Virus record (IMG/VR): IMGVR_UViG_3300022756_000010 | Coordinates: 1-24,664 of that record | DNA from: a virus | Length of the DNA stretch: 24,664 bases | Direction: 5' to 3' (one strand) | Shown here: positions 13,052 to 19,821 of the stretch, in pieces | Layout of the letters: every line of letters starts with the position of its first letter | How positions within the stretch are numbered: the first letter of the stretch is position 1 | Made by a program: the position numbers and the translations under genes | The notes under the pieces: model-generated | The model's database searches: none | What the model saw: the letters and a program-made list of their open reading frames with translations, nothing else | What the model was told of the DNA's origin: nothing

Positions 13052-13061
13052 TAGGTCAACC
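13052..13061 (-). promoter_or_regulatory. GGTTGACCTA site next to the att core
   Basis: An exact minus-strand copy of GGTTGACCTA, also found at 8644-8653 and 19286-19295. It overlaps the stop region of the 13056 gene and lies 18 bases from the att core. It could be an operator, a -35 element (TTGACC) or an integrase arm site. Confidence 0.4.
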
Positions 13062-13367
13062 TCCACGGTGGCCCGTCGCATCTGACTCTGGATCAGGAGA
13101 GTCCTGGTTCGATCCCAGGAGGGGCAACTTGATGTCGTCGTGTACGATGGTGTCGTACTCTTTTCCGGCCGGGGCCACGCCGTCGGGGGGATTGTCGGGG
13201 GGCGCGACCCCACGCCCCTCTAGGTAGCGCAAGTACATCGCAGCGGCGGCTAGAAACGTTACGAGTCCCACCGCCACTTGGCGCGGCCAGCCTTCGGGCC
13301 CGACCATGCCGAACACCCCGACGGCCAGCGTGGGGATCGCATCGTACCACTTCGGGCGCCAGGTCAT
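13056..13367 (-). CDS. Membrane protein whose C-terminus is encoded by the att site
   Basis: ATG 13367 overlaps the preceding stop. The 103-residue protein has two hydrophobic segments (about 9-22 and 30-46), then a Pro-rich linker. Its last 28 residues, including LLGSNQDSPDPES, are the antisense translation of the tRNA-like segment at 13079-13128. In an integrated prophage this tail would be replaced or changed at the junction. The membrane part looks real; the tail may be incidental. Confidence 0.6.
   Translation of the reverse strand: MTWRPKWYDAIPTLAVGVFGMVGPEGWPRQVAVGLVTFLAAAAMYLRYLEGRGVAPPDNPPDGVAPAGKEYDTIVHDDIKLPLLGSNQDSPDPESDATGHRGG
13079..13128 (+). other. Candidate attP core: 3' part of a tRNA-Gln(CTG) gene
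   Basis: The plus strand holds the anticodon arm to 3' end of a tRNA. The anticodon stem is TCTGA/TCAGG around loop CTCTGGA (13081-13097, anticodon CTG). A 5-base variable loop follows, then the T arm CCTGG-TTCGATC-CCAGG (13103-13119), then the acceptor strand AGGGGCA (13120-13126) and A127. No matching TGCCCCT acceptor strand or D arm exists upstream, so it is not a whole tRNA gene. Temperate phages carry such 3' tRNA fragments as attP, letting integration restore the host tRNA. Phage genes lie on both sides, which fits attP better than a prophage end. Confidence 0.75.
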
Positions 13368-13615
13368 GCGCGCTCCCCGGTCTGGCGTAGGGCCCACGGG
13401 CAGTCAGTGCTCGGGGCTTGCGGTTGGAGCGCCTGGCCGAAGTTCAGTTGCCGCAGCCACAGGCGCCCCGTGAACAGGACGCGGAAACGTTCGCGCCACG
13501 TCAGCGCCCAAAGGGTGATGGTCTCGCGCTCGTTGGTGTACGCGGGCAGCGGCAAGTACGGGGGCTGATTCTCCGCCCATACCTGCGTCTGCTCGGGAAA
13601 CTCGATGGGCTTCAT
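13364..13615 (-). CDS. Conserved phage protein (83 aa)
   Basis: ATG 13615 follows GGGGGAG in a copy of the repeated start element. Segments AENQPPYLPLPAY, LTWRERFRVLFTGRLWLRQL and NFGQALQPQ are the signature of a small protein family common in phages; its function is not known. Aromatic and basic residues in the middle may touch a membrane or DNA. Confidence 0.75.
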   Translation of the reverse strand: MKPIEFPEQTQVWAENQPPYLPLPAYTNERETITLWALTWRERFRVLFTGRLWLRQLNFGQALQPQAPSTDCPWALRQTGERA

Positions 13616-13643
13616 GGCTCCCCCGGGGTCCCGCGTGGGGCGC
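13616..13643 (-). repeat. Start-associated repeat, copy 1
   Basis: On the minus strand GCCCCACGCGGGACCCC, then GGGGGAG and the ATG at 13615. Confidence 0.55.
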
Positions 13644-13913
13644 TCATTCCAGTTCCCCGGATACTGCGTCAGCGCGAATCGCCAGCGGCCCCGACCACAG
13701 CAAATAATGGAGCGCCGCATATACCGCTGACGTGTAGCTGGCACAGCCTTCGCTCATGAAACGGTCTCCATCCACGACGCGCCACACAAGCCCGGTCGCG
13801 TCCTTCTCGACGCTCACCCCGTGCTGCGCGAGTAACGGAAGCACGCGGTACTCTAGGACGGTCTCCTCACCATGCGGAGTGCGTCGCCAACGCTTCGGCT
13901 GGTACGTGCTCAT
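13644..13913 (-). CDS. Hypothetical protein (89 aa)
   Basis: ATG 13913 overlaps the preceding stop and follows a GGAGG inside a copy of the start-associated repeat. The sequence has a basic start (STYQPKRWRRTPHG), then VLEYRVLPLLAQHGVSVE and a C-terminal helix (SAVYAALHYLLWSG). No family recognised. A gap of 28 bases to the next gene carries another repeat copy. Confidence 0.65.
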   Translation of the reverse strand: MSTYQPKRWRRTPHGEETVLEYRVLPLLAQHGVSVEKDATGLVWRVVDGDRFMSEGCASYTSAVYAALHYLLWSGPLAIRADAVSGELE

Positions 13914-14143
13914 GGGTCCTCCGGGGTCCCGCGTGGGGCCTCGCGTTCGCGGCGCTGCATGAGATCGTTCAGTAATAGCGCGAGCCGTGACGCCTGCCCG
14001 ATGGGAAGCGGGCCGAATATCGGCTCGTCGATCGCCTCCGGGGTCGGCAAGATTTGAGTGCGACGCGGGTCTGGCTTACTGAGAAGCACGTATCCGCGCT
14101 GCGTGCCCGCTCTATCCGCTTCGGCTTCCACGATCCACGTCAT
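13910..14143 (-). CDS. Hypothetical protein (77 aa)
   Basis: ATG 14143 overlaps the preceding stop. The first half is beta-like (TWIVEAEADRAGTQRGYVLL). The second half is helical (IGQASRLALLLNDLMQRRE). The last residues, APRGTPEDP, are encoded by the start-associated repeat that also supplies the ribosome-binding site of the next gene. Confidence 0.65.
   Translation of the reverse strand: MTWIVEAEADRAGTQRGYVLLSKPDPRRTQILPTPEAIDEPIFGPLPIGQASRLALLLNDLMQRREREAPRGTPEDP
13918..13940 (-). repeat. Start-associated repeat, copy 2
   Basis: On the minus strand GGCCCCACGCGGGACCCC leads into GGAGG and the ATG at 13913. Confidence 0.6.
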
Positions 14144-14346
14144 TGCGCCGCTCCGGTCTCCGGGGTCTCGCGTGGGGCCACGAAGTCAGGGCAATCGCAC
14201 GCTGGCTGCTTGGGTGGACGCCCGGGGACTTCGCAGTCGTATCCGATGCAACGGAACGGGGCGCTCGGGTCGGTCGGTGGAATGTTCAGCGCGTCGTCGA
14301 GCCGGTGCCACGAGTCGGGATGTCCACAGCGTTCGCAGATTCTCAC
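14140..14346 (-). CDS. Small zinc-binding protein (68 aa)
   Basis: GTG 14346 overlaps the preceding stop. The protein has CERCGHPDSWHR, FRCIGYDCEV and ACDCPDF, six Cys and two His in a short space, so it is probably a zinc-binding module. Its end, VAPRETPETG, is encoded by a repeat copy. Family known to me only as small phage Cys-rich proteins. Confidence 0.7.
   Translation of the reverse strand: MRICERCGHPDSWHRLDDALNIPPTDPSAPFRCIGYDCEVPGRPPKQPACDCPDFVAPRETPETGAAQ
14157..14181 (-). repeat. Start-associated repeat, copy 3
   Basis: On the minus strand GGCCCCACGCGAGACCCC, then CGGAG, before the ATG at 14143. Confidence 0.55.
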
Positions 14347-14468
14347 TTGCCCTCCTGGGGGGTCCCGCGTGGAGCGGACCCCACCCGATTCAGCGCGTCG
14401 CGCACGGCGCGCGCCTCAGGCCCCGAGAGCGGCCATGCGTTCATCGGCGGGTGCGCGTTCTTGCTCAC
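14343..14468 (-). CDS. Small protein (about 41 aa), start uncertain
   Basis: The frame ending at 14343 is coupled to the next gene. A GTG at 14468 has GGAG six bases upstream; an in-frame start at 14555 would overlap the previous gene by 70 bases. The part MNAWPLSGPEARAVRDALNR looks real and helical. The end, SAPRGTPQEGK, is encoded by a repeat copy. Confidence 0.5.
   Translation of the reverse strand: MSKNAHPPMNAWPLSGPEARAVRDALNRVGSAPRGTPQEGK
14353..14377 (-). repeat. Start-associated repeat, copy 4
   Basis: On the minus strand CTCCACGCGGGACCCCCC, then AGGAGGG before the GTG at 14346. Confidence 0.5.
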
Positions 14469-14485
14469 ATACCGCTCCGCCTGCG

Positions 14486-14830
14486 CTAACGCCGCTCGAT
14501 GAACGTGTCGGGCAGGAGCCCGTCGGGGGCGCTCGCCGGTTTGGAGGCGGCGCACTCCTCACAGACGATGCACGTCACGCCGGGGGTTTCGCTTCCGCAG
14601 CGTGGGCAACGCCAACTCTCTCGGGGCGCGTCCCCGGAGTCGGGCAGCGACACGCCGTGCGCGAGCAGCCACTCGGCCAACCCTCTTGCGCGCTGACGGC
14701 GCTGGGCGCTGTCATGCTCGTCAAGTTGCCGCTGCGTTGGCGACGCGGTATCGTCCTGAATAGGCGCAAACATCGGATGTGCTCGCAGCAATCGGGCCAG
14801 CCGCTCCGGGCCATGCACGGAATCAGTCAT
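14486..14830 (-). CDS. Zinc-ribbon protein (114 aa)
   Basis: ATG 14830 overlaps the preceding stop. The N-terminal two-thirds is helical (ERLARLLRAHPMF, RQRARGLAEWLLAHG). The C-terminal part has CPRCGSETPGVTCIVCEEC, a Cys-rich ribbon with CxxC repeats. A DNA- or protein-binding role is likely; the specific function is unknown. Confidence 0.7.
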   Translation of the reverse strand: MTDSVHGPERLARLLRAHPMFAPIQDDTASPTQRQLDEHDSAQRRQRARGLAEWLLAHGVSLPDSGDAPRESWRCPRCGSETPGVTCIVCEECAASKPASAPDGLLPDTFIERR

Positions 14831-14991
14831 GCTTCCGTGAAGTCCACGTAGTACGCCTTACCGAGTGCGAACTGCGCGATGGCGGCGGGGATCGTCCCGT
14901 CATACTGCGTGCTGAACTTCAGGGTCTTGCTGTCGGCGCTCCAACTATGCGCCGTGATGCTGCTCAGGATCATCTTTGCGCGAACGCTCAT
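14827..14991 (-). CDS. Hypothetical protein (54 aa)
   Basis: ATG 14991 overlaps the preceding stop. The sequence, starting SVRAKMILSSITAHSW and ending GKAYYVDFTEA, reads as a small beta barrel or sheet (MILSSITAHSW, TLKFSTQYDG, AYYVDFT). It resembles small phage proteins of unknown function. Supported by coupling on both sides. Confidence 0.7.
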   Translation of the reverse strand: MSVRAKMILSSITAHSWSADSKTLKFSTQYDGTIPAAIAQFALGKAYYVDFTEA

Positions 14992-15311
14992 GCGAATCCC
15001 TCGTTTTTCTCGACCAAGAGCCACTTTCCATCTTGGCGCTGATAGGTTTCCCCATGAAGCGGGCCGAACAGCGTGGCTCGCCAGTCGTGGTCGGGGTCCT
15101 TCGCGGCTACTCGCTCTGCCGTGGCGAAATCCCAAATCTTCCCCATGTCGTCCTGAGGCTCGCGATACACCTCGTCCCCGTCGCGCGTCACGCAGGCATC
15201 CCCGAACCCCACAGCAATGATTTTCCCGGGATGCGCCTCGGCTAGAATCGGCGGGCAATTCGCGCACGGATTCGGCTTACCCTCAAGCGGCGGCAACTTC
15301 TCCCACGTCAT
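14988..15311 (-). CDS. Conserved phage protein of unknown function (107 aa)
   Basis: ATG 15311 overlaps the preceding stop. Segments NPCANCPP, IIAVGFGDACVTRDGDEVY, DPDHDWRATLFGPLHGETYQ and WLLVEKNEGFA match a small phage protein family I recognise (VGFG.A.VTRDG..VY, DPDHDWR). The family is conserved but has no known role. Confidence 0.75.
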   Translation of the reverse strand: MTWEKLPPLEGKPNPCANCPPILAEAHPGKIIAVGFGDACVTRDGDEVYREPQDDMGKIWDFATAERVAAKDPDHDWRATLFGPLHGETYQRQDGKWLLVEKNEGFA

Positions 15312-15604
15312 ACGTTCTCCTTTTGGGCCGCGGCCGCCAGAAACGCCGCCAGCCCCGCGTCTATCGCAGGCGCCTTCTTGGGCGGCACGTAGTCGCCTGT
15401 CGCCACATTCTCTATGCAGCGCGCAATCGCCACGTGCCAGGACGCTTCTACGCAGGCCGCGAGTCGCGCATCGCTCGCCGCGACCCAGTGTGCGTCACAT
15501 TCGTGCGAGTGCCACCCGACGCTACACCACTGCCCGCACTCGCGGGGCGTACTCGTCCGTACCTGCTGGATCGCCGCCACCAGCCGAGCCTGTAGGTCGG
15601 TCAT
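15308..15604 (-). CDS. Hypothetical protein (98 aa)
   Basis: ATG 15604 overlaps the integrase stop. The sequence contains CGQWCSVGWHSHECDAHW, a cluster of Cys and His, and helical flanks (LQARLVAAIQQVRT and ASWHVAIARCIENVA). It may bind a metal. It is the first accessory gene after the integrase. No family recognised. Confidence 0.65.
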   Translation of the reverse strand: MTDLQARLVAAIQQVRTSTPRECGQWCSVGWHSHECDAHWVAASDARLAACVEASWHVAIARCIENVATGDYVPPKKAPAIDAGLAAFLAAAAQKENV

Positions 15605-16635
15605 CCGGCCATCACCTTCAGCGCCGAGAACTCGCCAGCCACGGCCCGCAGCGCCTCACGATCGCCCGCCAGGTACGGCTCGACCTCGTGCTGCCGGTAG
15701 AGGCCGCCGACGCCCTTGGCACTGTGGCCCATGTAGGCATCCTGGCGGCTGGGCGGGATCTTCGCGAGCTCGAGGAAGTGCGCCCACGTCCGCCGGCCGG
15801 TGTAGATCGTGAGGCCCTCGAGCTTCAGCGCCACCGCCGCCTGCGTCAGCGCCGCCTCGAACGTCCGCATGTGGCAGAGCGGGCGCACCGGCGTCACGAT
15901 CCGCGGAATGATGCGGTCGCGGTCGTCGCGCTTCGTGCCGTGGATCAGGATGCGGTCAGCCTCGACCTCCCACGGGGTCTCCCAATACTCCTTGTTGCCC
16001 ATCCCCGTGCAGCAGAGCGTCCACCACATCGCCCCGTAGCGGCCGAGCTGCTCGGCGACGGCGCGCGCCACGTCGGGCGGCAGGCCGCTCGTCTTCTTCC
16101 GCTTGACCGCGCGGGTGCGAACGCGCGAGACCTGGGCCCAGAGCTCGGAGTACCGGCCCTCGCTCACGTTGTCGCGGATGAACGCCTGGGCGGCCGAGCG
16201 GGTGAGGTTGAACATCCGCGGCTTCGCACGCTCCCGGTACCGGGCGAGCATGGCGGGGAGCTCGGCCACGGTCGCCGTCGGCCGACCCTTCAAGACCGCG
16301 TGCAGGGCGTACCCGTAGTCCTCGGCGGTCTTCGGGGCGAGCTCGGCCTTCTCAAGCCACGCTTCGACGGCGGCCTTCAGAGGCAGCGCCCGCTCGGGCG
16401 ACAGCTTCAGGGAGAGGCCCTGGCGACGGAAGGAATTGAGGAGCACGACGGCCTTGATGTGCCCGTCGGCGATCATCCGGGCGAGGTCCTCGCGCCCGGC
16501 GTCGTGGATCTCGTCCAGCATCCCCTGAATCTTCTCGAACAGGTCAGGGTCACTGGTGCCACTGGCCCGCCGGATGGAGACACCGGCGACTATCCTCTCA
16601 AGTATCCCGCTTCCGCGGGCATTGGATCGGTACAT
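15601..16635 (-). CDS. int: Tyrosine recombinase (phage integrase) with non-canonical active site
   Basis: This 344-residue protein would catalyse attP x attB recombination. The N-terminal 75 residues (YRSN-x-RGS, IRRASG) resemble an arm-binding domain and are shared with the 12404-12934 protein. A core-binding SAM-like domain follows (about 85-170), then the catalytic domain. Box I reads CCTGMGNKEYW, with Gly213 where Arg is usual. Lys235 (GTKRD) matches the beta-hairpin Lys. Box II reads YTGRR, with Tyr278 in place of His and Arg281 kept. Box III is MGHSAKG with His304, and the nucleophile is Tyr313. ATG 16635 follows GGAGCGTGACC. It belongs to the leftward recombination operon. Confidence 0.9.
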   Translation of the reverse strand: MYRSNARGSGILERIVAGVSIRRASGTSDPDLFEKIQGMLDEIHDAGREDLARMIADGHIKAVVLLNSFRRQGLSLKLSPERALPLKAAVEAWLEKAELAPKTAEDYGYALHAVLKGRPTATVAELPAMLARYRERAKPRMFNLTRSAAQAFIRDNVSEGRYSELWAQVSRVRTRAVKRKKTSGLPPDVARAVAEQLGRYGAMWWTLCCTGMGNKEYWETPWEVEADRILIHGTKRDDRDRIIPRIVTPVRPLCHMRTFEAALTQAAVALKLEGLTIYTGRRTWAHFLELAKIPPSRQDAYMGHSAKGVGGLYRQHEVEPYLAGDREALRAVAGEFSALKVMAG

Positions 16636-19285: not shown

Positions 19286-19347
19286 GGTTGACCTAGAGAC
19301 CAGGGGTGACCAAGGGCAACCTACTAGGGGGACCTGGCACGTGTCAA
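19286..19347 (-). promoter_or_regulatory. Leftward early promoter with repressor-type operators
   Basis: On the minus strand TTGACA (19342-19347) and TAGGTT (19318-19323) are 18 bases apart. Past the -10 are GGGTGACCAA (19304-19313, plus strand) and GGTTGACCTA (19286-19295, plus strand), two related operator-like sites. The divergent repressor gene starts at 19375, so this is the likely genetic switch region. No convincing -10/-35 pair was found for the repressor itself. Confidence 0.65.
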
Positions 19348-19374
19348 GAGTGCGTTTTTGGCTGTGGAGGAGTG

Positions 19375-19821
19375 ATGGCGAAGCGGAAACCGGAAGTCGA
19401 GCGTAGCGAAATACATCGCAGGATGATGGCGGTCGTTCGGGAGCAGGGCCTCACCCAAGCCGACCTGGTACGCGGCACGAGCGCCACGAGCCCCACGGTG
19501 AGCGACTGGTTCAACAAGGGGGCCGTGCCCGACGCCGAGAAGCTGGGCCACTTCTGCCGGCTGACGCGGACGAACGCCCACTGGATGATCTTGGGGACGG
19601 GGCCGAAGACGGCGCCTGGCGAGGGGGAAACCGCCAGCGACTTGGCCTTCGCGCTCGGCGCCCGCGCCGTCCTCACCGAACTGAAGCGGCTGCTCGGCGG
19701 CCTCGAGGTCGCCTACTTCGGGAACCGGGCGACTACTTTAGACGCCGCAGCCCTGGCTGCGATGAAGGTGATCGAGCGAACAAGCGGGCCGTCTCACCGA
19801 ACGCGGCGTCAGGCACCGTAG
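19375..19821 (+). CDS. CI-like helix-turn-helix repressor
   Basis: This is the only confident plus-strand gene. ATG 19375 has GGAGG four bases upstream. A GTG immediately before is also possible. The 148-residue protein has an N-terminal HTH: HRRMMAVVREQGLTQADLV (about 14-32), then SPTVSDWFNKGAVPDAEKL and ...TNAHWMILGTGP, the usual CI/Cro-family ending. The C-terminal half (about 85-148) is helical and lacks a recognisable LexA/S24 peptidase Ser-Lys pair, so RecA-induced self-cleavage is not evident. It faces the leftward early operon and probably represses it. Confidence 0.88.
   Translation: MAKRKPEVERSEIHRRMMAVVREQGLTQADLVRGTSATSPTVSDWFNKGAVPDAEKLGHFCRLTRTNAHWMILGTGPKTAPGEGETASDLAFALGARAVLTELKRLLGGLEVAYFGNRATTLDAAALAAMKVIERTSGPSHRTRRQAP

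Follow-up and report, generated by a model that had tools for sequence, protein, structure and literature searches.

The sequence at 13082..13129 (plus strand) very probably serves as attP core in a temperate tailed phage of Gemmatimonadota whose integrase uses the 3' half of tRNA-Gln(CTG). The window, i.e. the whole stretch of 24,664 bases that was analysed, is a virus record of IMG/VR, classed as viral and representing a partial contig. The fragment is read as attP because it lies between phage genes. On one side are a T5orf172-domain protein, a replication protein and the terminase, and on the other side are the integrase, RecT, YqaJ, an HTH repressor and LPD38.

Sequence and limits of the core

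In 27 of 27 genome contigs, a complete tRNA-Gln(CTG) gene had a 3' half identical to positions 13082–13127. The match extended to 13129 in 18 of them, and its left limit was 13082 in all 27 hosts, inside the 5' anticodon stem. Hence, the fragment spans the 5' anticodon stem (CTGA) to the discriminator base, with the anticodon loop, variable loop, T arm and acceptor strand in between. The 43-base string GACTCTGGATCAGG...GGAGGGGCA (13084–13126) had an exact match in 27 genome contigs, each time within a complete tRNA-Gln(ctg), and the 43-mer GACTCTGG...GGGGCA occurred only once in the window. An exact match of 46–48 bases to a host tRNA is not due to chance. An earlier note, made from the letters alone, had proposed a tRNA-Gln(CTG) 3' half acting as attP core, and the identity with 27 complete host genes bears this out. 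Its limits of 13079–13128 need a correction on the left: the host tRNA has C at position 27 and the window has T, meaning that 13079–13081 are phage bases.

Of the 27 matching contigs, 26 were titled Gemmatimonadetes, Gemmatimonadota or Gemmatimonadaceae and one was titled Deltaproteobacteria. The latter may be misbinned, because it has the same tRNA-Ala(cgc) neighbour of tRNA-Gln(ctg) as most of the others. Gemmatimonadota are soil and lake bacteria. A genome returned by the search of this phylum (G072) contained a related phage contig binned there (G072:C31, loci L163–L165), apparently circular with a period of 50,118 bases. Compared with the window phage, its TerL was 35–38% identical, RecT 36%, YqaJ 30% and LPD38 30%. 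This related phage independently supports Gemmatimonadota as the host phylum. The contig carried neither a member of the window's integrase family nor a tRNA-like fragment. The window DNA had no match in GenBank phages, and the core was absent from other IMG/VR contigs.

The 5' half of the host tRNA (TGCCCCTTGGTGTAACTGGCAACACGC) was absent from the window, as the earlier note had stated. ARAGORN and Rfam agreed that there is no complete tRNA in the window, and none formed when the fold included the upstream bases. No other tRNA-like fragment was found in the window with Rfam. A second core copy near the integrase, as expected if a cassette had been inserted at attP, was not found (score of 13 vs. 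a shuffled mean of 12.3).

The anticodon loop CTCTGGA (13086..13092, plus strand) is flanked by the inverted repeat CTGA/TCAG and is the probable crossover (overlap) region. The left limit of host identity lies just 5' of this loop, and 3'-half-only copies in other genomes likewise begin at or next to the anticodon loop. Arm-type repeats, a trait of lambda-type attP, showed no excess above chance within 220 bp around the core. A 10-bp hairpin (−10.0 kcal/mol) followed by TCTTTT lies at 13131..13164 (plus strand) and could be the terminator of a rebuilt tRNA. Such a hairpin with a T-rich tail is not above chance (~0.9 matches expected in the 1.4 kb scanned).

The integrase and its distance from the core

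A tyrosine integrase of 344 aa is encoded at 15601..16635 (minus strand), as is required of a tRNA-targeting phage, though its box-I arginine is replaced by glycine (Gly213). It was identified by PHROG 1 (integrase, E 4.5e-7) and by alignment with Gemmatimonadota relatives. K235, R281, H304 and Y313 are kept and are common to all nine family members in the alignment, among them the window integrase. Pfam did not recognize the window integrase and PHROGs recognized it weakly; PF00589 matched three of the nine family members. The family profile weakly matched XerA, XerD and Int proteins in the PDB (E 0.001–0.02). A single-sequence structure model had a mean pLDDT of 37 and was set aside. There was no match to the integrase in GenBank phages or IMG/VR.

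The nearest relatives of the integrase (~39%) use other tRNAs, namely Asn, Lys, Arg, Leu and Gln(TTG), and Met is also among the targets of the family. In the tRNA-adjacent members, the 3' end of the integrase gene faces the 3' end of the tRNA. In three members (G143, G162 and the differently arranged G087), the tRNA 3' end was perfectly duplicated over at least 40 bp. In three further loci, L031 (G292:C4), L032 (G098:C77) and L044 (G058:C211), the integrase frame enters the adjacent tRNA gene, meaning that the last integrase residues would be encoded by the att site.

A clade made up of the window integrase and its nearest relatives (L030–L039 and L132–L134) lacks the box-I arginine and has G, N, L or M instead (TGM[GNLM]), but retains K, R-II, H-III and Y. 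Counting only sequences with both positions filled, an arginine at K+4 was present in 15 of 18 sequences that lack Arg I, compared to 2 of 24 that have it. This pattern needs only 4–5 changes on the tree, which is too few for significance once descent is allowed for, and a few remote rows read differently depending on the alignment. The arginine at K+4 may be a displaced catalytic arginine. A displaced arginine is already known from the CTnDOT integrase (PMC8138268).

The distance from the core to the stop codon of the integrase (15601, minus strand) was 2,472 bp. The gap is filled by exactly ten small, mostly overlapping minus-strand ORFs, in agreement with the ~2.5 kb and ten small genes of the earlier note. 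An ORF for a small hydrophobic protein of 103 aa (13056..13367) runs through the att core, and its ATG overlaps the preceding stop. The nine further ORFs are located at 13364–13615, 13644–13913, 13910–14143, 14140–14346, 14343–14489, 14486–14830, 14827–14991, 14988–15311 and 15308–15604, all on the minus strand; none had a convincing family match.

Four near-identical 19-base repeats (GCCCCACGCGGGACCCCGG, minus strand) were observed at 13623–13641, 13921–13939, 14160–14178 and 14357–14375, with 0.07 expected by chance. They sit at gene junctions, just before the start codons of consecutive small genes. Three of the repeats encode an APRGTPE-like tail at a C-terminus.

The annotated genes are on the minus strand from YqaJ (19068) leftwards, comprising RecT, the integrase, the small genes, the replication protein and the terminase. 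The cluster of the integrase and the ten small genes on this strand ends at the core, whose tRNA 3' end faces the integrase, as in the relatives.

An integrase gene beside its att site is usual, but not obligatory, in temperate phages targeting tRNA genes. In the relatives, the distance from the integrase stop to the tRNA 3' end was −68 to 294 bp (15 tRNA-adjacent loci) and 625 bp in one more. The relative loci at first had flanks of 1.5 kb only. As such flanks could create an artefact in the spacing, larger regions were fetched for the 24 loci without a tRNA. These 24 enlarged loci showed no additional tRNA at 0.6–10 kb in the expected orientation, with the exception of G087, in which ~180 bp separate the integrase start from the distal att copy. 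Compared with its own integrase family, the window is therefore an outlier, having ten ORFs and 2,472 bp between core and integrase. This family is the scope of the comparison, and to this extent the unusual distance claimed beforehand was upheld. A limited literature search returned nothing relevant on attP sites remote from the integrase.

tRNA-Gln(CTG) in Gemmatimonadota and other readings of the fragment

A looser T-arm/acceptor pattern matched in 154 of 395 genomes sampled from Gemmatimonadota. In 12 inspected genomes, 3'-half-only copies followed an intact tRNA-Gln(ctg) downstream on the same strand. The distance from the complete gene was 22 kb in G007, 36 kb in G359, 13 kb in G205 and 15 kb in G101; the other eight were G256, G253, G002, G185, G071, G077, G061 and G291. 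In G346 and G034, arrays of 3'-half copies were present with no complete gene within the stretch fetched. Some of the copies adjoin tyrosine integrases of the ordinary PF00589 type (G359:C5, G101:C2, G253:C33, G256:C1 and G346). The copies, some of them beside such integrases, mean that tRNA-Gln(CTG) is a working attB in Gemmatimonadota.

The earlier note had suggested searching bacterial genomes for an identical tRNA-Gln(CTG) with a related prophage beside it, and for the fragment at attL/attR. The identical gene was found in Gemmatimonadota, and attR-type copies of the 3' half alone were found at tRNA-Gln(CTG) beside other integrated elements. No prophage with the window's integrase family was found at this gene in the 395 genomes of the phylum, 102 genomes of one family and 288 genomes of one order (overlapping samples). 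Integrated copies bounded by a rebuilt tRNA and, at the opposite end, a 3' fragment were seen for other elements at tRNA-Gln(CTG), and for relatives of the integrase at other tRNAs, but not for this phage in the genomes searched.

The main structural rival to an attP is that the window is chromosomal and that the fragment is an attL/attR hybrid at the junction of two tandem elements in tRNA-Gln(CTG). Tandem arrays at this gene are common in the phylum, and such a junction would look alike over a short stretch. However, the record is classed as viral, and the two sides of the fragment are complementary and co-oriented without any duplication: terminase and replication on the left, integrase, RecT, YqaJ, repressor, lysis-region and structural genes on the right. 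The tetranucleotide correlation of the two sides (0.67) was also within the range of a single phage (0.58–0.75), a range in which host segments reach similar values. We consider a tandem junction very unlikely.

That the fragment is an attP, but one serving another integrase, encoded where the genome is missing, or left as the fossil of an earlier one, while the integrase at 15601 uses another site, is highly improbable. The unusual distance would fit this, as would the ordinary PF00589 integrases that use tRNA-Gln(CTG) in other genomes, and in a partial contig a second integrase may lie in the missing part. Yet no other tRNA-like fragment was found in the window, the core is oriented towards this integrase as in the relatives, and a fossil is at odds with a core that is undecayed and identical to current host genes. 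A degenerate or D-arm-less tRNA gene of the phage itself is almost certainly the wrong reading. The Rfam tRNA model does align to 13069–13127 with a partial acceptor strand, but at 26.3 bits (below the gathering threshold of 29 bits), with a 13-position deletion over the missing D arm and with non-standard, broken acceptor pairs. Moreover, the bases upstream of 13082 are unrelated to the host tRNA-Gln.

Arrays of gene units of 1–8 kb, parted by tRNA-Gln(CTG) 3' halves, were observed in L098 (G291:C150), L105 (G061:C1), L099 (G346:C7), L102 (G034:C96) and L100 (G071:C250). Mostly no tyrosine integrase was found in them with Pfam and the family profile; L099 had a partial PF00589 match. Inspected by eye, the cargo included an HTH antitoxin-like protein, an SDR-type enzyme, a Fic-like protein with an HTH partner, and PEP-CTERM-like and transporter-like proteins. 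The arrays resemble the gene cassettes of integrons, but on a tRNA-derived site. Among the 3,919 islands of Islander, only 4 tandems of three or more were reported (PMC4383910). It is conceivable, though rather doubtful, that tRNA-Gln(CTG) is a shared platform on which phage integrases acting in trans could shuffle the often integrase-free units of 1–8 kb in an integron-like manner, with attP-bearing phages as vehicles and engines of the arrays.

Proposed integration and its consequences

Under the attP reading, the tyrosine integrase would pair attP with the host's tRNA-Gln(CTG) gene, in its 3' half, and exchange strands at or near the anticodon loop. That the integrase at 15601 acts on this core is something we infer, because no prophage of its family was found at tRNA-Gln(CTG). 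A crossover at or near the anticodon loop is likewise probable, and the contig appears to represent the free-phage, not the integrated, state. The 5' half of the host would stay in place and the phage would supply an identical 3' half, so that a functional tRNA, perhaps followed by a terminator from the phage, would be rebuilt at one end of the prophage. The opposite end would be marked by the host's own 3' half, now displaced. As the core is undecayed and identical, the phage half and the host half together would give exactly the host tRNA.

The ORF at 13056–13367 runs through the core, and integration would thus change its C-terminus. The prophage form would have a host-coded C-terminus and a length of at least 108 aa in the 27 hosts, compared to 103 aa in the phage. 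From the gene order, integration would probably also cut the minus-strand gene row, separating the integrase and small genes from the part with T5orf172, replication and terminase. The surroundings of the core yielded no promoter.

Phages whose tyrosine integrase uses the anticodon loop classically carry a host tRNA 3' half as their attP, and 2083 of the 3919 islands in Islander are anticodon-centred (PMC4383910). Like these islands, the window has an attP with a 3' tRNA fragment from the anticodon loop, and integration would rebuild the gene. It differs from them (PMC4383910) in having attP 2.5 kb from the integrase and no close phage relative in the collections searched. In mycobacteriophage BPs, too, integration alters the C-terminus of an ORF that contains attP (PMC4557955), a likeness in geometry only: the ORF encodes the repressor in BPs and a small hydrophobic protein here.

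Two BPs-type consequences were considered and rejected. A truncation by integration does not fit, as the prophage forms of the ORF would be longer, not shorter. Integration-dependent immunity does not fit either, as the ORF has no repressor match and a repressor-like HTH gene is present at 19306–19821, ~6 kb from the core. The window also differs from Cluster K mycobacteriophages, in which lysogeny is tRNA-dependent (PMC10865867): its core is identical to that of the host, so that the tRNA would be restored exactly, and it contains no phage tRNA gene.

The phage is therefore very probably a temperate phage targeting a tRNA gene, of the anticodon-loop class, and its device is ordinary apart from the distance to the integrase. 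The integrase-free arrays and the loss of the box-I arginine with an arginine at K+4 may be of greater importance than the attP. For the phage itself, which is uncultivated, the core identifies the phylum of the host and predicts the insertion site. It also means that an integrase and its attachment site need not be neighbours, and tools seeking attP only beside the integrase would miss a site like this one. The prediction is that integration would split the gene row of the phage and rewrite the end of one small hydrophobic protein.
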